This document shows, piece by piece, positions 20,773-29,872 of a stretch of DNA of 37,085 bases. Position 1 is the first letter of the stretch. Every line of letters begins with the position of its first letter. The position numbers and the translations under genes are program-made. The notes under the pieces are model-generated. The model saw nothing but the letters and a program-made list of their open reading frames with translations, searched no databases and was not told the origin of the DNA. This DNA is from Rhodoferax sp. (GTDB taxonomy: Bacteria > Pseudomonadota > Gammaproteobacteria > Burkholderiales > Burkholderiaceae_C), in NCBI RefSeq assembly GCF_014859475.1, contig NZ_JACUUE010000007.1, positions 1-37,085 on the forward strand, in the 5' to 3' direction.

Positions 20773-21666
20773 ATGATGAATCAGCGATTGATCTGGCGCA
20801 TGACGCCCTTGTGTGTGCTGCTGGGCAGTGTCTTTGCCACGAGCGCCTGGTCGGCCAGCGCGGCACCTGCGGCGGCTCAAGTGGTCGGCACCGCCGCGCA
20901 GCCCGCGCTCATGCACGCCAAACTTTGGCCAGCGGGCCTGGACCCCAAACCCTATCTGGTGAGTGAGAAGCTCGACGGCGTGCGCGCTGTTTGGGATGGC
21001 CACAACTTGCGGTTTCGCAGCGGGCTGCCCATTGCCGCGCCCGGCTGGTTTACCGCCGGGCTGCCCAAAACACCGCTGGACGGCGAGTTGTGGCTGGGCC
21101 GGGGCCGCTTTGACGAACTCTCTGGCACGGTGCGCAAAAAAGTGCCCGTGGAGGCCGAGTGGCGCCAACTGCGCTACATGATTTTTGACTTGCCCGGTGC
21201 CGTGGGCTCGTTTGCAGAACGCACGGCGCGCATCACCGCAATACTGGCGCAGGCACGCCAGCCCTGGCTGCAAGCGGTGGCGCAAACACAGGTCAGCCAT
21301 GCTGACAGCCTGCAGGCCTTGCTGAATCAAACGGTCAAGGAAGGCGGCGAAGGCCTGGTGCTGCACCGCGCCAACGCCCTGTGGTCACCTGGGCGCAGCG
21401 ATGCCCTGCTCAAACTCAAACCCATGCCCGATGAAGAGGCGCGGGTGGTGGCGCATCTGCCGGGCAAGGGCAAGCATGCCGGGCGCATGGGTGCCCTGTT
21501 GCTGGTCATGCCCGACGGCCAGCAGTTTGCCCTGGGCACGGGGTTCAGCGACGCCGAGCGCGCCGACCCGCCCCCGGTGGGCGCCACCGTGACCTACCGT
21601 TACCGCAGCCGCACGCCCAACGGGCTGCCCCGGTTTGCCTCGTTCATGCGGGTGCAGCCACAATAA
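20773..21666 (+). CDS. Exported ATP-dependent DNA ligase (LigE type)
   Basis: A 297-residue minimal ATP-dependent ligase with an N-terminal signal peptide (LCVLLGSVFATSAWSASA). Motif I with the adenylated Lys is EKLDGVRAVWDG. Motif III includes LDGELWLG and MIFDLPG; motif IV is EGLVLH and motif V LLKLKPMP. An OB domain ends the protein, and no extra DNA-binding domain is present. LigE enzymes are thought to act in the periplasm, possibly on DNA taken up from outside. The main chromosomal ligase would be NAD-dependent LigA, not seen here. The start is ATGATG at 20773 after CAGGGAG. It precedes greB by 5 nt. Confidence 0.87.
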   Translation: MMNQRLIWRMTPLCVLLGSVFATSAWSASAAPAAAQVVGTAAQPALMHAKLWPAGLDPKPYLVSEKLDGVRAVWDGHNLRFRSGLPIAAPGWFTAGLPKTPLDGELWLGRGRFDELSGTVRKKVPVEAEWRQLRYMIFDLPGAVGSFAERTARITAILAQARQPWLQAVAQTQVSHADSLQALLNQTVKEGGEGLVLHRANALWSPGRSDALLKLKPMPDEEARVVAHLPGKGKHAGRMGALLLVMPDGQQFALGTGFSDAERADPPPVGATVTYRYRSRTPNGLPRFASFMRVQPQ

Positions 21667-21671
21667 CAGGC

Positions 21672-22226
21672 ATGAGCAAAGCCTTTACCAAAGAATCCGA
21701 CAACGAGGACGAAGACGACGATAGCCGTCTGCCGCCATTGCCTCCCGGTGGCAAAAACTACATCACGCCCCAAGGCTTCGCCACCCTGCGCCACGAACTC
21801 AAAACGCTGATTGACGTGACCCGTCCCAAGATGGTGGAGGCAGTGCATTGGGCGGCCAGCAATGGCGACCGCTCGGAAAACGCGGACTACCACTATGGCA
21901 AAAAGCGCCTGCGAGAAATTGACCGGCGCATCCGTTTTCTGATCAAGCGTCTTGAAATTGCCGAAGTGGCCGATCCGTCGCTGCACTTTGGCACGACCCG
22001 AATATTCTTTGGTGCCACCGTGACCTATGTGGATGCGCAGGGCGAGCAGCGCACCGTGAAGATCATGGGCATTGACGAGGCCAATAGCGCGCAAGGTGAG
22101 GTCAGCTGGATCTCGCCGATTGCACGCACGCTGCTCAAGGCCGAGGAGGGTGATGTGCTCAAGCTGGTCATGCCGGACCGGGTGGACGAGATCGAGGTCA
22201 TCAAGGTGTGCTACCCGCGCCCCTGA
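21672..22226 (+). CDS. greB: Transcription elongation factor GreB
   Basis: A 184-residue factor that enters the RNA polymerase secondary channel and triggers cleavage of backtracked transcripts. The coiled-coil tip is seen in ASNGDRSENADYHYGKKRLREID, quoted here only in part (GDRSENADYHYGKKR), with the catalytic Asp-Glu. YGKKRLREIDRRIRFL marks GreB rather than GreA. The C-terminal domain carries GEVSWISPIARTLL. The acidic N-terminus (DNEDEDDDS) is an extension. It is 5 nt after the ligase gene, so the two are likely co-transcribed. Confidence 0.94.
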   Translation: MSKAFTKESDNEDEDDDSRLPPLPPGGKNYITPQGFATLRHELKTLIDVTRPKMVEAVHWAASNGDRSENADYHYGKKRLREIDRRIRFLIKRLEIAEVADPSLHFGTTRIFFGATVTYVDAQGEQRTVKIMGIDEANSAQGEVSWISPIARTLLKAEEGDVLKLVMPDRVDEIEVIKVCYPRP

Positions 22227-22230
22227 GACG

Positions 22231-22410
22231 ATGGCTTGCTGTACGACAGCCGGTCAGCCAGGCACCGCCATCAGCGTCGAGACACTCAACGGCGTTGTGA
22301 TGCTGTGCGGGTTTGCCAAGAGCGCCACTGAGAAAGTGGCTGCCGAGAGCATTGCACGCAAAGTCAATGGCGTGAAGTCCGTCAGGAACGAGATCGTCAT
22401 CCAGCCTTGA
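22231..22410 (+). pseudogene. Broken BON-domain protein remnant
   Basis: A 59-codon frame encodes the back half of a BON domain: GTAISVETLNGVVMLCGF, then SATEKVAAESIARKV and NGVKSVRNEIVI. The front half is missing. In another frame just ahead (ggcttgctgtacgacagc) GLLYDS resembles the lost ADS/LL part of the domain, so a frameshift near 22262 seems to separate the two. BON proteins of the OsmY type are periplasmic and bind lipids. No ribosome binding site precedes the ATG. It abuts greB and marks the left edge of the ttr block. Confidence 0.65.
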
Positions 22411-22501
22411 ACGGCAGGACCCCGGCGCGGTGTGCGCTTGGTAGGCGATAGGGACTTTTACCTAGGGCCATGCCCCTTTGTTCTGATTTTCAATTCTGAG
22501 C

Positions 22502-22544
22502 GCAAAGCTTAATCTTGCTCCGTCATCAAAAAACGGAGCTTTGC
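22502..22544 (+). promoter_or_regulatory. Hairpin masking the ttrB ribosome binding site
   Basis: GCTCCGT (22517-22523) pairs perfectly with ACGGAGC (22533-22539), which holds the GGAG ribosome binding site. GCAAAGCT (22502-22509) pairs perfectly with AGCTTTGC (22537-22544), ending directly before the ATG at 22545. The two helices share AGC, so they compete, or stack with a 10-base bulge. Either way the site is paired. This suggests translational control of the reductase operon, for example by temperature, a protein or ribosome state. The trigger is not visible. Confidence 0.55.
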
Positions 22545-23276
22545 ATGAGTGCTCATCCAGATTTTTCCCGGCGCGCCTTTTTCGCGGCCTTGCCGGCAGT
22601 CACCGCGGGTCTGGCCGTCCCGGCCATGGCTGCAGAAGTAGCCGGGCCGCATTGGTCGATGTTGGTGGACACCCGGCGTTGCATCGCCTGCCAGGCCTGT
22701 ACCATGGCCTGCGCCATGGAAAACGCCTCCCCAGATGGGCAGTTTCGCACGGTGGTGGCGACCTACGCGGTGACTGGCCAGGACGGCAAAACCGGCCTCT
22801 CCGTGCTGCCGCGTTTGTGCAACCACTGCGACGAGCCGCCCTGTATTCCCGTGTGTCCGGTGGGCGCCACCTTCAAACGGGAAGACGGCATTGTGCTGGT
22901 GGACGGCGACCGCTGCGTGGGCTGTGCCTACTGCGTCCAGGCTTGCCCGTACGACGCGCGCTTCATCAATCACGACACCGGCAAGGCCGACAAGTGCACC
23001 TTCTGCAGCCACCGGCTCGAAGCCGGACTGCTACCCGCTTGCGTCGAAACCTGTGTGGGCGGCGCCCGCATATTTGGCGACATCAATGATCCGAACAGCG
23101 AGATCAGCCAGCGCTTGAAGGCGGCGCAGGGGCAGATTCAGGTGCTGAAACCCGAAGCCAAAACCTCCCCCAGGGTTTTTTACATTGGTCTTGACGACCA
23201 CCTGAAGGGGCGTGTGGACGGCACTTCTGCCGCCGACATGATGTGGCGTCCGAGCCAACAAGGAGCATCAACATGA
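22545..23276 (+). CDS. ttrB: Tetrathionate reductase subunit B (4x[4Fe-4S])
   Basis: A 243-residue electron-transfer subunit carrying electrons from TtrC to TtrA. It begins with a twin-arginine-like signal (FSRRAFFAALPAVTAG). Four cysteine motifs follow: CIACQACTMAC, CNHCDEPPCIPVCP, CVGCAYCVQACP and CTFCSHRLEAGLLPAC. The set matches four [4Fe-4S] clusters of the DmsB/NrfC type. The ATG at 22545 is preceded by GGAG within a hairpin. The stop overlaps the ttrC start by 4 nt. The tetrathionate assignment rests on the TtrB/C/A/S/R set; a related polysulfide or other sulfur-oxyanion substrate is possible. Confidence 0.87.
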   Translation: MSAHPDFSRRAFFAALPAVTAGLAVPAMAAEVAGPHWSMLVDTRRCIACQACTMACAMENASPDGQFRTVVATYAVTGQDGKTGLSVLPRLCNHCDEPPCIPVCPVGATFKREDGIVLVDGDRCVGCAYCVQACPYDARFINHDTGKADKCTFCSHRLEAGLLPACVETCVGGARIFGDINDPNSEISQRLKAAQGQIQVLKPEAKTSPRVFYIGLDDHLKGRVDGTSAADMMWRPSQQGAST

Positions 23277-24358
23277 ACACGACGATTGAAATTCTGGGTT
23301 TTGCGCGGGAACCGGCCTGGTTACCGTGGGCCGTTACCTATTTCTTTTTGATCGGCATTTCCACCAGTGCCTTCTTCCTGTCCTTGCCGGGGCTTGCCTG
23401 GCACCATCCCGACTGGCGCCATGTGTCACGGCGGGCGTTGCTGGTGGCGCTGGTCTGCGGCTTGGCCGGCCCGGTCGCCTTGCTGGCCGACCTGCACCAG
23501 CCAGGACGATTCCTCAATTTCTACCTGCACCCGAATTTGGGCTCGTGGATGGCCTGGGGGTCCTTCTTTATTCCGCTGTACCTGTCCGGACTGTTCCTTT
23601 ACACCTGGCTCTGTTTGCGTCCTCAACTGGCCGCATTGGGCAAATCCGACGACAAGTTTGCGGGGGTCTATCGCATGCTGGCCTTGGGCGGCCATGACAA
23701 CCCGGGCGCCATCAAGGCGGCGGCGCTTCTGGGCGGCATCGGCGCTGCGCTGATCCTGCTCTACACCGGCATGGAGGTGATGGTGGTGCAGGCCCGCCCA
23801 ATGTGGCACAGCCCGGTGCTGCCACTGCTCTTTTTGGTCACTGCGCTGAGCGGCGGCTTGGGCATGACGGGCCTGTTTGAAGCGTTGAACGGCAACAATA
23901 AGGCTGCGCCTTTGCTCAATCGCTGGCTGGTGCGCAGTCAGTGGGCGACCCTGCTGTTACTGCTGGTCTGGTTGCTGGCTGGTGCTTCCGGTTTATCGAG
24001 TGCAGCAGCCGAAGCGCTGGCCGCGATGCAGGGCGAGTTCAGCTGGTGGGTCACTGGCGCCTGGCTGATTGGCAGCACCCTGCTGACGCTGTGGCTCGCC
24101 AGCTCCCGTCGTCATACGCTGATCCTGCCGGCGCTGTTCGCCCTGCAGGGCGCCTGGACGGTGCGCTGGGTTGTCCTGATGACCAGCCAGAGCCTGCCCA
24201 AGATGGGCGCCACCACCCACGACTATTTCCTGACCCTGACGCCCGATGGCCTGCTTGGCATCGTCGGCATGGTCGGTCTGTGTCTCACCATTTACATTGT
24301 TCTGACCAGCCTCATCCCTTGCGACGATCTGGCGCAAGACCGCGGAGTTCAATCATGA
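23273..24358 (+). CDS. ttrC: Tetrathionate reductase subunit C (NrfD-like membrane subunit)
   Basis: A 361-residue polytopic membrane protein of the NrfD/PsrC family with about nine hydrophobic helices. It oxidises quinol and anchors the reductase. Family-like segments include YFFLIGISTSAFFLSL, LADLHQPGRFLNFYL and MEVMVVQARPMWHS. It begins with ATG at 23273 inside the ttrB stop (ATGA) and ends in the same way over ttrA, so all three are translated as one unit. The track ORF starts 30 bases earlier inside ttrB and is not used. Confidence 0.87.
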   Translation: MNTTIEILGFAREPAWLPWAVTYFFLIGISTSAFFLSLPGLAWHHPDWRHVSRRALLVALVCGLAGPVALLADLHQPGRFLNFYLHPNLGSWMAWGSFFIPLYLSGLFLYTWLCLRPQLAALGKSDDKFAGVYRMLALGGHDNPGAIKAAALLGGIGAALILLYTGMEVMVVQARPMWHSPVLPLLFLVTALSGGLGMTGLFEALNGNNKAAPLLNRWLVRSQWATLLLLLVWLLAGASGLSSAAAEALAAMQGEFSWWVTGAWLIGSTLLTLWLASSRRHTLILPALFALQGAWTVRWVVLMTSQSLPKMGATTHDYFLTLTPDGLLGIVGMVGLCLTIYIVLTSLIPCDDLAQDRGVQS

Positions 24359-27300
24359 AAATCAGCAAACGTCGTCAAGTTCTCGCACTCGGTGGTCTGG
24401 CCGCCTTTGCCGTCGGGTATTCCGAAACCGCGGGTCGCGTGATCGGCAAGCTCCTCGGCAAGGATGCCCCCAAGCACAAAACAGCGGGAGATGCCCCGGC
24501 ACCCGAGTTCCGCGTGGATCGCCAGGGTCATCTGGACATCAATCCAGCGCAGCAGGTCAGCTACACGACTTGCCTGGGTTGCACCACGATGTGCGGCGTG
24601 CGCGTGCGCATCGACCGCGCTTCAGGCAAGGTGCTGCGGGTCGCGGGTAACCCCTACAGCCCGCTGTCCACCGATCCGCACCTGCCGATGAAGGCCAGCG
24701 TGCGTGAGAGTTTTCTTGCTATCTCTGCCCACAACGGCAAGGGCTTGGCGGGGCGCTCCACGGCTTGCGGACGCGGCAACGCGGTGGCCCAGCAAATCGA
24801 CTCGCCGTACCGCGTCCTGACGCCGCTCAAGCGCGTCGGTGCGCGTAACAGCGGTCAATGGGAACCAATCGCCTTTGATCAACTGGTCAAGGAGCTGGTC
24901 GAAGGCGGCGACCTGTTCGGCGAAGGGCATGTCGACGGACTGGCTGCGCTGCGCGATCTGAAAACGCCCATCGACAGCACCCAACCGGCGCTCGGGCCCC
25001 GGGTCAACCAGGTGGCGGTACTCTCCAGTGTCAAGGATGGTCGTGATGGCTTTGCACGTCGATTCTTCCAGCAGTCCTACGGCACCCTCAACTTTGTTGG
25101 CCATGGTTCCTATTGCGGCGGCTCCTACCGTTCGGGTTCGGGTGCCCTGTTTGGCAACATGAAGGCCATGCCACATTGCAAGCCCGATTTTTCCAATGCC
25201 GAGTTTGTGCTCTTTGTCGGCACGGCACCCGGGCAGGCCGGCAACCCGTTCAAGCGCCAGGGCACCCTGATCGCCAAAGCGCGCACCGAGGGCAAGCTGT
25301 CCTACGTCGTGGTCGATCCGGTGCTGACCCACGCCGACAACCGCGCCAGTGGTGATCGTGGCCGCTGGTTGCCTATTCGTCCCGGCACCGATGGTGCGAT
25401 GGCCATGGCCATCATCCGCTGGCTGTTCGAGAATGAACGCATCGACAGCCGTTTCCTGAGTTTTGCGAACGCCAAGCTGGCCAAGGCAAATGGCGAACCC
25501 TCGTTCTCCAACGCCACCCATCTGGTCGTCGTGCAGCCGAAACATCCACGCGAGCGGCGCTTCCTGCGCGCCTCCGACCTGGGCGTCGAATTGCCTGAAG
25601 AACAGCGCTACAAAGAGGGCGATGTCTTCGTTTGCCTGGATGATGCGGGCATGCCGGTGTTCAGTGACCAGGCCAAAGGTCCAGCCCCCTTGTTTGTTGA
25701 CACTGTGCTGACGGTCGGCGGCCAGGAGATTCGGGTCAAGTCCTCGCTGCAACTGCTGCGTGAAGAAGCCATGCGCCTGGAGCTTGACACCTACGCCAAG
25801 GCCTGTGGCATCCCGGCCGAGACCCTGGCGGCCCTGGCCCAGGAGCTGGCCTCGCACGGCAAACGCGCCTCGGTCATTGCCCACGGCGGCATGATGAGCG
25901 GTAGCGGCTTCTACAACGCCTATGCGCTGATGAGCATCAATGCGCTGCTGGGCAACATCAACTGGAAGGGTGGCTTCGTCGCCAACGGCGGCGGCTTCAA
26001 GGACAGCGGCGAGGGGCCGCGCTACAACCTGGCAACCTTTGCCGGCATGGTCAAGCCTTCCGGAACGCCGCTAGGGCGCAATGTGCCCTATGAAAAAACC
26101 GCCGAATTTGCCACCAGGAAAGCGGACAACAAACCCTATCCGGCGACCGCGCCGTGGTTTCCGAACGCGCCCGGCCTCACCACCGAACTGCTGCCTGGCG
26201 GCATCAGTGGCTACCCCTATGCGCTGAAGGCGCTGGTGCTCTGGTCGTCCAATCCGCTGTACGGCGTCACCGGCCTGCGCAACAAGATTGCCAAGGACCT
26301 GGCCGATCCGAAGAAGCTGCCACTGATCATCTCGGTGGACCCTTTCATCAACGAGAGCAATGCCTACGCCGACTACATCATTCCCGATTCGCTGATGTAC
26401 GAAAGCTGGGGCTGGGTGGCGGCCTGGAACGGTGTGCCGACGAAGGCGATGGGCGCGCGCTGGCCGGTCATCGAGCCCCGGGCCGCGAAGACGCCCGAGG
26501 GCCGCGCCATCGGCATGGAGACCTTCTTCATCGCGCTGGCCAAGGCCATGCAGCTGCCCGGCTTTGGTGAAGGGGCCCTCAGCGATCCGGACGGCGCCAC
26601 TTATGCGTTGAATGGGCCCGAGGACTGGTACCTGCGCGGTGGCGCCAACATTGCCTGGCTGGGCAAGGCGCCGGTGGCCGATGCGACCGACGACGACATC
26701 CGCCTCAGCGGTGTCGATCGCATTCGCCCGCTGCTGGAAAAAACCCTGAAGCCGGAAGAGGTGGCCAAGGTGGCTTTCTTGTTGACCCGGGGTGGACGCT
26801 ACCAGCCGGGCAAGGATGCCTATGACGAGGAAAACCCGGAGTGGATGCGCAACCCGATGAAGGCCATGTCCCATGTGTGGAATGAGAACGTGGGCACCTC
26901 AAGGAACAGCCTGACCGGCAAACGCTACAGCGGATGCGCTACCTGGGTCGAGCCCGCGTTTGCCGACGGCACGCCGGTGCGCAAGCTCTATCCGGTGGAC
27001 AAGTGGCCCCTGCAACTGGTCAGCTACAAGTCGGCGTTGCAAAACCCGTACTCGATTGGCGCTACCCGCCTGCTCGGCCTGCATCCGGAAAACCCTGTGC
27101 TGATCCATCCGGACGATGCCGCTCGCCTGCATGTGAAGATGGGTGATTTGACGCTGATCACGACGCCCTCGGGCAGCCTCAAGGCGCGGGTCATGGTGCA
27201 TGCCGGTATCACGCCGGGGGTGGCGGCATTCGAGCACGGCTTCGGCCATCGGGAGCTGGGGGCACGGGCGCATCGCATTGGCAGTGCGCGCCAGCCGCAG

Positions 27301-27441
27301 GACCGGCGCCTGGCTGCCGGGGTCAACCTCAACGAGATTGGTTTGATCGACCCGACGCGTCCCGACAAATCGCCCTGGGTCGATTCGGTCTCGGGTGGCG
27401 CGGTGCGTAACGGCTTGCCGGCGACCCTGCGCCGGGCCTGA
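24355..27441 (+). CDS. ttrA: Tetrathionate reductase subunit A (molybdopterin catalytic subunit)
   Basis: A 1028-residue periplasmic molybdoenzyme of the DMSO-reductase family, close to Salmonella TtrA in length (about 1020). It starts with a twin-arginine-like leader (SKRRQVLALGGLAAFAVG). A [4Fe-4S] motif uses Cys73, Cys76, Cys80 and Cys138. Cys254 in HGSYCGGSYRSGSG is my candidate molybdenum ligand. Later segments (NPLYGVTGLRNKI, ESNAYADYIIPDSLMYES) bind the bis-MGD cofactor. It should reduce tetrathionate to thiosulfate during anaerobic respiration. The track ORF of 1166 residues begins out of frame inside ttrC; the real start overlaps the ttrC stop. The moeB-like gene of this window may serve its cofactor. 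Confidence 0.88.
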   Translation: MKISKRRQVLALGGLAAFAVGYSETAGRVIGKLLGKDAPKHKTAGDAPAPEFRVDRQGHLDINPAQQVSYTTCLGCTTMCGVRVRIDRASGKVLRVAGNPYSPLSTDPHLPMKASVRESFLAISAHNGKGLAGRSTACGRGNAVAQQIDSPYRVLTPLKRVGARNSGQWEPIAFDQLVKELVEGGDLFGEGHVDGLAALRDLKTPIDSTQPALGPRVNQVAVLSSVKDGRDGFARRFFQQSYGTLNFVGHGSYCGGSYRSGSGALFGNMKAMPHCKPDFSNAEFVLFVGTAPGQAGNPFKRQGTLIAKARTEGKLSYVVVDPVLTHADNRASGDRGRWLPIRPGTDGAMAMAIIRWLFENERIDSRFLSFANAKLAKANGEPSFSNATHLVVVQPKHPRERRFLRASDLGVELPEEQRYKEGDVFVCLDDAGMPVFSDQAKGPAPLFVDTVLTVGGQEIRVKSSLQLLREEAMRLELDTYAKACGIPAETLAALAQELASHGKRASVIAHGGMMSGSGFYNAYALMSINALLGNINWKGGFVANGGGFKDSGEGPRYNLATFAGMVKPSGTPLGRNVPYEKTAEFATRKADNKPYPATAPWFPNAPGLTTELLPGGISGYPYALKALVLWSSNPLYGVTGLRNKIAKDLADPKKLPLIISVDPFINESNAYADYIIPDSLMYESWGWVAAWNGVPTKAMGARWPVIEPRAAKTPEGRAIGMETFFIALAKAMQLPGFGEGALSDPDGATYALNGPEDWYLRGGANIAWLGKAPVADATDDDIRLSGVDRIRPLLEKTLKPEEVAKVAFLLTRGGRYQPGKDAYDEENPEWMRNPMKAMSHVWNENVGTSRNSLTGKRYSGCATWVEPAFADGTPVRKLYPVDKWPLQLVSYKSALQNPYSIGATRLLGLHPENPVLIHPDDAARLHVKMGDLTLITTPSGSLKARVMVHAGITPGVAAFEHGFGHRELGARAHRIGSARQPQDRRLAAGVNLNEIGLIDPTRPDKSPWVDSVSGGAVRNGLPATLRRA

Positions 27442-27452
27442 GGCTGGCGCTT

Positions 27453-27469
27453 GGCGCTAATCCAGCGCC
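27453..27469. terminator. Possible shared terminator between ttrA and ttrR
   Basis: GGCGCT and AGCGCC pair with a 5-base loop across the ttrR stop, between two convergent genes only 15 nt apart. The stem is short and no T-run follows, so the call is weak. Confidence 0.25.
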
Positions 27470-28089
27470 GCCGGATCGGCCCGCAGCATCAGGCGGGCCA
27501 GTTCGGCGGCGGATGAGATGGCAGCCTTTTCCATGATGTGCTGGCGGTGGATGTGCACCGTCTTTTCGCTGATGCCCAGGCGGACAGCAATCAGCTTGTT
27601 CGGTTGGCCGAGTGCGATCAGGCGGGCGGCTTCCCTTTCCCGAGGCGAGAGCGCAGCCAGCACAGCCAAGGCGGCATCGCGCCGCTGTGTTTCGTCCAGC
27701 GCCTCAGCACTGCGCCGGATGGCTGCGGCCACGGTATCAAGCAGCATCTGGTCCTTGAATGGTTTCTCGATGAAATCGCTGGCGCCTGACTTCATGGCCT
27801 GCACCGCCATCGACACATCGGCGTGGCCCGTCATGAACAGGATCGGCAGCAGCACACCACGCTCGCGCAGCACCTGTTGCAGTTCCAGGCCACTCATGGC
27901 TGGCATGCGGATGTCAAGCAGCAGGCAGGACGGCTGGGTGGGCGGCGCGGCAAGGTCGAGAAATTCTTCAGCCGAGGCATAGAGCTTGACGCTCCAGCCC
28001 ACTGAATCGAGCAGGAACCGCAAGGAGTGGCGCAGACCCGCATCATCGTCCACCACGTGGACGAGGCAATCTTCAGGTGGGTAGGTCAT
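27457..28089 (-). CDS. ttrR: Tetrathionate response regulator (FixJ/NarL-type)
   Basis: A 210-residue response regulator. The receiver domain has the acidic VVDDDAG start, the phospho-acceptor Asp in LLLDIRMPAMSG and the Lys in EKPF. A LuxR/FixJ helix-turn-helix follows (LSPREREAARLIALG, ISEKTVHIHRQHIME). It should activate ttrBCA when phosphorylated by TtrS. The start at 28089 (MTYPPEDC) lies 17 nt inside the end of ttrS, so coupled translation is likely; the track extension is within ttrS. In contrast to Salmonella, where ttrRS and ttrBCA lie on one strand side by side, here they converge. Confidence 0.87.
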   Translation of the reverse strand: MTYPPEDCLVHVVDDDAGLRHSLRFLLDSVGWSVKLYASAEEFLDLAAPPTQPSCLLLDIRMPAMSGLELQQVLRERGVLLPILFMTGHADVSMAVQAMKSGASDFIEKPFKDQMLLDTVAAAIRRSAEALDETQRRDAALAVLAALSPREREAARLIALGQPNKLIAVRLGISEKTVHIHRQHIMEKAAISSAAELARLMLRADPAALD

Positions 28090-29872
28090 GGCAGCGGAGT
28101 GAAAAGGAAAAACGCATGCCCGGACCATCGGCATTGGGCTCGGCCCACAGCCGACCGCCATGAGCTTCAATGATGGTTTTGCAAATAGGTAACCCAAGGC
28201 CCAGCCCATCCGGCTTGGTGGTGAAAAATGGTTCAAACAGGCGGGCCAATTGTGTCGGTTCGAGACCGCAACCCTGGTCAATGACGTGGAGATGAACCCA
28301 GTTGTCAACGGCTTCAATTATCACCTGAACACGGTGCCGCTCGGGCGCGAGGTTGCGCCCGGCATCCAGGGCATTTTTGATCAGATTCAGCAGGACCTGC
28401 TGAATTTGCGGGCCATCCGCCAGCACCCGGCAGTGCTCGGGTAGCCGATTGTCGATGTGGATGGTGGGCGGATGGGCCAGCATGCCAATGAACAGGTGCC
28501 GCGCTTCCTTGGCAATGAGCGCCAGATCAACCGGAGCGCGCACGGCGCCCCGTTTTTTGGCGAAATGGCGAATGCGCTGCACGATGCCACCCGCCCGCTC
28601 GGCTTCGCTCACGATCTGGGTGCAGGCTTCGTTGATGGCCTCCGGCGTCAGGCGGCCGCTGTCCTGGCGGCGCAGCACGGTGCGGGCGTAGGTGCCAATG
28701 GTGGTCAATGGCTGGTTCAATTCGTGCGCCAGGTTGCCCGACAGTTCGCCCAGCACTGACAATCTTGAGAGATGCTCCATCTGCTCCTGGCTTTCACGCA
28801 TGCGCGACTCGGCCTGTTCCCTGGCCTGGAGGGACTCACGCAATTGGGCGGTTCGACGGTGCACCAATTGTTCGACCCGGATGGTGTGGGTGATCCAGGC
28901 CACCAGGGCCACCAGTGTACCCAGCAGCCAGGGCCAGAAACGACGCGCCAGCCCTTCTGGCGTGATTTCCCGCAAGTAGGCGTACGGGCCAACGCGCAGT
29001 TCCCGATACAAGTCGTGTACCGGTTGATAGTCTGCCGGAACAGTCCACCCCATGCCGTCTGCTGCTTGCGTCATGGACAGCAGGGCGTGGGCGACACGCT
29101 TGGCCAGCACCGGGTCGGTCTGCCGGGTGACAGACAGGGGCCAGTCCGGGAAAAGGGGGGTCGACAGCGCACACGGAAACTGCTTTTCCTGGCGCTGCGA
29201 CAAAACCCGGAAGTCAGCGGGCTGAAGCTGTGCCTCGCGCACCATTTGTTCCGGCACACAGGCGCGCACGATGCCGGCATCGACTTTGCCCTGTAGCACG
29301 GCCTCGACCACCCGGCTCATCGGCAAGCCAATAAATAAAATTTCCTTGAGATCCGTCTCCGGATCGACGCCACTGTGCAGCATGGCCTGGGCAGCCAGCA
29401 GGTAGCCACCAAAAGCGTCCGGTGCAATGGCCGCCACCCTTTTTCCGGTCAGATCAGTGAGCTCTTTTAAATCCGTGCGATCACTGCGCGCCAGCACGAC
29501 CGAGCCCAGCGCCCTGGCGGCAGACACCCCCACAGATTCCAGCGTGGCGATGCGGCTGAGGCCGAATTCGGCCTCCATGGTGATGTAGTGTACCGGGTTG
29601 GTGATCGCCAGATCAATACGCTCCCCAGCGATGGCCTGGCGCAAGCTTTCGGCATCATGGTTTTCCAGCCGGAAATGGTGTTCTGGTAGCGCCCGGTTCA
29701 GGTAGCTGATGAGCGGATTCCAGTCGGACGTCGATGCGCGTTCCCCTTGGTAGGCAAAGACGCCTATCGCCACTTCCTTCCCCAAGGCCTGCGATGCACT
29801 GAAACACAAGAGTGCGAGCAAGCCGACCAACAAACTTGTTCGCAGGGTCTTTTTGTGGCCGACGTTATCCAT
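28073..29872 (-). CDS. ttrS: Tetrathionate sensor histidine kinase
   Basis: A 599-residue membrane kinase. After a signal segment comes a PhnD-like periplasmic binding domain (about residues 33-290, e.g. DLAITNPVHY, GVFAYQGERAS) expected to bind tetrathionate. A single membrane helix follows near 313-333 (WPWLLGTLVALVAWI). The HisKA box is GNLAHELNQPL with the phospho-accepting His. The ATPase domain shows LLNLIKNALDAG, DQGCGLEP and GLGLGLPICKTI. This architecture is that of TtrS and the related ThsS thiosulfate sensor, so ligand identity is inferred from the ttrBCA neighbours. It is transcribed ahead of ttrR. Confidence 0.85.
   Translation of the reverse strand: MDNVGHKKTLRTSLLVGLLALLCFSASQALGKEVAIGVFAYQGERASTSDWNPLISYLNRALPEHHFRLENHDAESLRQAIAGERIDLAITNPVHYITMEAEFGLSRIATLESVGVSAARALGSVVLARSDRTDLKELTDLTGKRVAAIAPDAFGGYLLAAQAMLHSGVDPETDLKEILFIGLPMSRVVEAVLQGKVDAGIVRACVPEQMVREAQLQPADFRVLSQRQEKQFPCALSTPLFPDWPLSVTRQTDPVLAKRVAHALLSMTQAADGMGWTVPADYQPVHDLYRELRVGPYAYLREITPEGLARRFWPWLLGTLVALVAWITHTIRVEQLVHRRTAQLRESLQAREQAESRMRESQEQMEHLSRLSVLGELSGNLAHELNQPLTTIGTYARTVLRRQDSGRLTPEAINEACTQIVSEAERAGGIVQRIRHFAKKRGAVRAPVDLALIAKEARHLFIGMLAHPPTIHIDNRLPEHCRVLADGPQIQQVLLNLIKNALDAGRNLAPERHRVQVIIEAVDNWVHLHVIDQGCGLEPTQLARLFEPFFTTKPDGLGLGLPICKTIIEAHGGRLWAEPNADGPGMRFSFSLRCHDLPT

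Follow-up and report, generated by a model that had tools for sequence, protein, structure and literature searches.

A predicted ttrB promoter in Rhodoferax lies inside a hairpin that may lock read-through RNA against translation

The promoter that we predict for ttrB in Rhodoferax sp. starts transcription inside a hairpin that covers the ribosome-binding site of this gene, so that mRNA made from it would lack the 5′ arm of the hairpin. We consider it probable that the hairpin serves as a translation lock against read-through, which the promoter splits. By comparison of leaders we could show the anatomy of this putative promoter, the pairing of the predicted arms and, in related leaders, selection on this pairing; the start site, the read-through RNA and its repression we infer.

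The window, i.e., the whole stretch of 37,085 nucleotides that we analysed, carries a ttrBCA operon in the order B-C-A with a TtrSR pair nearby (Table 1), which identifies it as a putative tetrathionate reductase operon with tetrathionate as the predicted substrate. The ttr scores stay below the curated cut-offs, probably because the NCBIfam models rest on enterobacterial proteins. For the regulator the best NCBIfam match is FixJ, with TtrR second, while the kinase matches TtrS. Among named relatives, the nearest are Rhodoferax MAGs (89-95% identity in TtrB) and many Rhodocyclaceae-type genomes. Upstream of ttrB, greB and a BON-domain ORF point in the same direction, no intrinsic terminator was found in 22200-22700, and the two genes are a possible source of RNA that reads through into ttrB. 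Upstream of greB, at 20773-21666, a gene that resembles ATP-dependent DNA ligases matches Pfam DNA_ligase_A_M and DNA_ligase_OB_2 and apparently encodes a signal peptide.

Table 1. Features of the ttr region in the window (minus positions are relative to the predicted transcription start)
Feature	Position	Strand	Basis or remark
greB and BON-domain ORF, co-directional upstream genes	21672..22410	+	Pfam, NCBIfam
TtrR-like operator, imperfect palindrome TAGGGACTTTTACCTA	22449..22464	+	-73..-58; same position in ~60 leaders; TtrR binding inferred
CCAAT-type box, here CTGAT	22483..22487	+	-39..-35; alignment
Second 5′ arm GCAAAGCT	22502..22509	+	promoter spacer, -20..-13; not conserved
-10 hexamer TAATCT	22510..22515	+	column consensus TAnnnT
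5′ arm GCTCCGT of the lock	22517..22523	+	-5..+2, mostly untranscribed from own promoter; sequence, opening costs
Predicted transcription start +1, G	22522	+	pyrimidine-purine initiator step
3′ arm ACGGAGC of the lock	22533..22539	+	contains SD GGAG 22535-22538; sequence, fold
Second 3′ arm AGCTTTGC	22537..22544	+	abuts ATG; sequence
ttrB, iron-sulfur subunit	22545..23276	+	Pfam Fer4_11; best NCBIfam match TtrB, 321 bits (cut-off 416)
ttrC and ttrA, remainder of operon	23273..27441	+	best NCBIfam matches TtrC, TtrA, below curated cut-offs
ttrR and ttrS, convergent two-component system	27457..29872	-	Response_reg and GerE; HisKA and HATPase_c

Scanning with a generic sigma-70 model detected no promoter in front of ttrB; only the alignment of approximately 65 betaproteobacterial ttrB leaders, each placed by its own features, revealed one. 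These leaders share a TtrR-like operator, a CCAAT-type box and a -10 hexamer, and the spacing between box and hexamer is fixed at exactly 27 nt in nearly all of them, whereas the distance from hexamer to ATG ranges from 32 to 53 nt. In a set of 49 leaders with less redundancy, the information at the conserved hexamer positions is 1.86 (T), 1.35 (A) and 1.53 (T) bits; in the logo, the A at -36 in the CCAAT-type box reaches 1.71 bits, and the columns of the palindrome, which is of the type TAGGnA..CCTA, up to 1.2 bits. A perfect version of this palindrome, TAGATGAATTCATCTA, is found in leader L072, and hexamer variants occur at the same place in Janthinobacterium-type loci (TATCAT) and in Oligella (TAGAAT). 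Of 44 non-redundant leaders, 36 have a pyrimidine-purine step 7 nt beyond the hexamer, as compared to 2-17 for other steps, and we predict the ttrB start at this step. The module resembles an activator-dependent sigma-70-type promoter that starts at an initiator base. A match to CCAAT-27-TAnnnT is absent from the region upstream of ttrS, and an automatic scan found no promoter of this kind at the distant TtrB-like genes that a class-wide search returned. Our literature search found no account of ttrB start sites or leader structure.

The original prediction for this leader was that two perfect helices bury the GGAG site or the bases up to the ATG (22545-22547), and the helices are borne out: the arms given in Table 1 form a perfect helix of 7 bp and a second perfect helix, GCAAAGCT:AGCTTTGC, which have AGC (22537-22539) in common. 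Both helices are real in the DNA and moderately improbable by chance. Of the dinucleotide shuffles of 22440-22560, 6.2% contain a perfect helix of 7 bp or more with a comparable loop, 4.8% contain one of 8 bp or more, and 1.6% contain both; the fold has a z of -2.2 for these 121 nt and of -2.4 for the 50 nt from 22516. The window has no match to any known RNA family in Rfam.

The original prediction further took both arms to be present in one ttrB mRNA, which the anatomy of the promoter contradicts. The mRNA from the predicted promoter would be without the lock because the two 5′ arms lie almost wholly before the predicted +1. This RNA would read GUCAUCAAAAAACGGAGCUUUGC-AUG, with a leader of 23 nt, and opening its SD and start codon is computed to cost 3.9 kcal/mol at 37°C, compared to 11-12 kcal/mol for RNA that begins at 22517 or further upstream (11.3 from 22517 itself). 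The masking that had been proposed is thus computed for RNA that spans the region, i.e., that begins at -6 or earlier, but not for the normal ttrB mRNA. Nor does a switch between two masked states find support, since the second helix lacks conservation and its 5′ arm lies upstream of the -10 hexamer; the nearest relatives, L002, L053 and L054, have GCAGCGCT, GCAACGCT and GCAAGACT in place of this arm, which breaks the helix. As a candidate riboswitch or RNA thermometer the ttrB mRNA was rejected, because both competing arms would have to be in the normal mRNA and the predicted start lies past nearly all of both 5′ arms. More generally, a leader hairpin seen in genomic DNA may be absent from the mRNA.

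Across betaproteobacterial ttrB leaders, the untranscribed bases -6 to -1 appear to be under selection for pairing with the bases that precede the AUG, though all significance values are inflated and the tests optimistic because the sequences are related. When the 12-14 nt directly following the hexamer were paired in free register with the last 12-14 nt before the ATG, true partners beat swapped ones in the set of all leaders (0 of 5000 swaps). The same test gave 17 and 1 of 5000 for G1, the clade of the window (1 of 5000 in the 14-nt version), and 0 of 5000 for the related lineage G2; promoter-spacer controls showed no pairing excess. The pairing partners in G2 are the 7 nt that follow the hexamer and the 7 nt that precede the ATG, as in GACATCG:CGATGTC, GGCAACA:TGTTGCC, GGCTACG:CGTAGCC, GGCAGTG:CACTGTC and GACAGCG:CGTTGTC. 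For this outer helix, 84.7% of cells are paired as compared to 76.7 ± 1.6% after shuffling (0 of 500 shuffles; 23-57% for slid versions), and four pairs have changed on both sides. The covariation that had been suggested as a check is therefore present in G2, but not for the window's exact helix in its own clade, where the fixed 7-bp helix has 65.2% paired cells versus 66.0% in shuffles and zero double changes, so that the evidence for this exact helix consists of the free-register and energy tests. In the latter, the bases -6 to -1 raise the opening cost above that of random 6-mers, with 8.27 versus 6.09 kcal/mol in G1 and 10.36 versus 6.67 kcal/mol in G2. The nearest relatives of the window (L002, L032, L053, L054) keep a lock of 5-8 kcal, and several G1 leaders have weak locks.

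The bases -6 to -1 are left untranscribed only by the gene's own promoter and are present in RNA from upstream, which predicts a stronger lock where the upstream gene is co-directional. In G1 and G2 together, the median lock is indeed 5.7 kcal/mol with a co-directional upstream gene versus 1.9 kcal/mol otherwise (p=0.013), with orientations taken from automatic gene calls that are rough and in some cases weak. After similar leaders had been collapsed, the medians were 5.3 and 0.24 kcal (p=0.002). The effect is found in G2 (p=0.003), but does not reach significance in G1 by itself (p=0.46), and strong locks also occur at some divergent loci (L057, L063, L032). A first call of orientation from codon usage was set aside as unreliable, as was a hand-picked list, which had been made after the lock values were seen and was thus open to bias.

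These observations could also be read in other ways. In the window's clade the helix might owe its existence mainly to chance plus the conserved SD and discriminator, and be without function; this would accord with the missing fixed-register covariation in G1, with the shares of shuffles that yield both helices (1.6%) or the first alone (6.2%), and with the weak locks of several G1 leaders. We nonetheless regard it as unlikely, as free-register pairing in G1 exceeds both swaps (1 of 5000) and random 6-mers, the four nearest relatives retain their lock, and covariation is clear in the related lineage G2. A riboregulator within the normal ttrB mRNA, perhaps responsive to temperature or a ligand and with two masked states, is quite improbable: perfect helices do cover the SD, which is masked in RNA from -6 or earlier, but the predicted start lies inside the hairpin, the second helix is not conserved, an Rfam match is absent, and from +1 the opening costs just the 3.9 kcal mentioned above, and 7.0 kcal even at 15°C.

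Action at the level of DNA, where a repressor would bind to an inverted repeat around +1 or the repeat would affect the opening of the promoter, would fit the location of the 5′ arm at -6 to +1, and the counts of G.U and A.C (11 versus 5) do not separate an action of RNA from one of DNA. However, the arms co-vary in sequence while the distance between them varies by several nt (G2 leaders have 31-36 nt), which is unlike a protein site and speaks against a dimeric operator, and the strength of the lock goes with the direction in which the upstream gene runs; we hold such an action to be rather improbable, too. Very improbable, to our mind, is a switch gated by the start site, where a choice between starts near -6 and at +1 would lock or unlock translation of the operon and the discriminator would be evolving as an anti-SD element.

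In the read-through lock that we favour, transcription activated by TtrR would begin at about 22522, within the hairpin, and the genuine ttrB mRNA with its 23-nt leader would be devoid of the anti-SD arm and freely translated. RNA entering from the side of greB and the BON gene would carry the bases -6 to -1, such that the SD and the start region could fold into the hairpin, and RNA so folded would be poorly translated.

A related situation has been described for sigG of Bacillus subtilis, where read-through RNA from spoIIG was proposed to be blocked by a large hairpin, one that RNA made from the sigG promoter itself cannot form (PMC5942855). The likeness is that a hairpin is proposed to stop the translation of read-through RNA and is impossible in RNA that starts at the promoter of the gene; yet the sigG hairpin has 20 or more bp and belongs to a Gram-positive sporulation gene, whereas that of ttrB has 7-12 bp, belongs to a respiratory operon and is supported by sequence comparison. 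In phage T4, I-TevI is masked in early and middle RNA but accessible in late RNA; masking of the SD has also been reported for soc, e and related late genes (PMC2988022). As is predicted for ttrB, the SD is masked in the long RNA and free where the placement of the promoter drops the 5′ arm, but the T4 case is experimentally shown temporal control in a phage, and that of ttrB is predicted for a chromosomal operon.

Published control of ttr is transcriptional, as the original prediction had stated. PMC11293645 describes TtrSR control of ttrBCA in Vibrio parahaemolyticus, with a ttrR box GTGG-N4-CCAC just upstream of -35, and PMC5408782 cites TtrSR control of ttrBCA in Shewanella and Salmonella. 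These systems resemble the operon described here in having a FixJ-type TtrR and, upstream of the ttrB promoter, a box with an inverted repeat, but the Vibrio box differs from the betaproteobacterial TAGGnA..CCTA, which lies near -65. No RNA layer in ttr control was found in the available parts of either paper.

Other groups of leaders do without the lock. It is absent from G4 and G5, and G3 has none from -6. Instead, the G3 leaders (L005, L089, L106, L110, L115), which include Polaromonas-type ones, have a free SD that is preceded by a short stem-loop such as GAGCC-AATCA-GGCTC. This stem-loop begins at approximately the predicted +1, which agrees with the predicted start, and could be a 5′ stabiliser of the mRNA. 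The promoter module is present and the leader lock absent in the Thiobacillus/Sulfuriferula group (L058, L061, L062, L065, L066) and in the Oligella group (L074, L084, L114), indicating that the lock varies between lineages.

Locks that silence read-through RNA but spare a gene's own mRNA are known in a few cases, mostly from phage genes. The ttrB leader would be an instance of this mechanism, which is known but has seldom been described, in a conserved operon for respiration of many betaproteobacteria, and the link between lock strength and the orientation of the upstream gene may help to gauge, by comparison of genomes, how widely bacteria protect tightly controlled genes from stray transcription.
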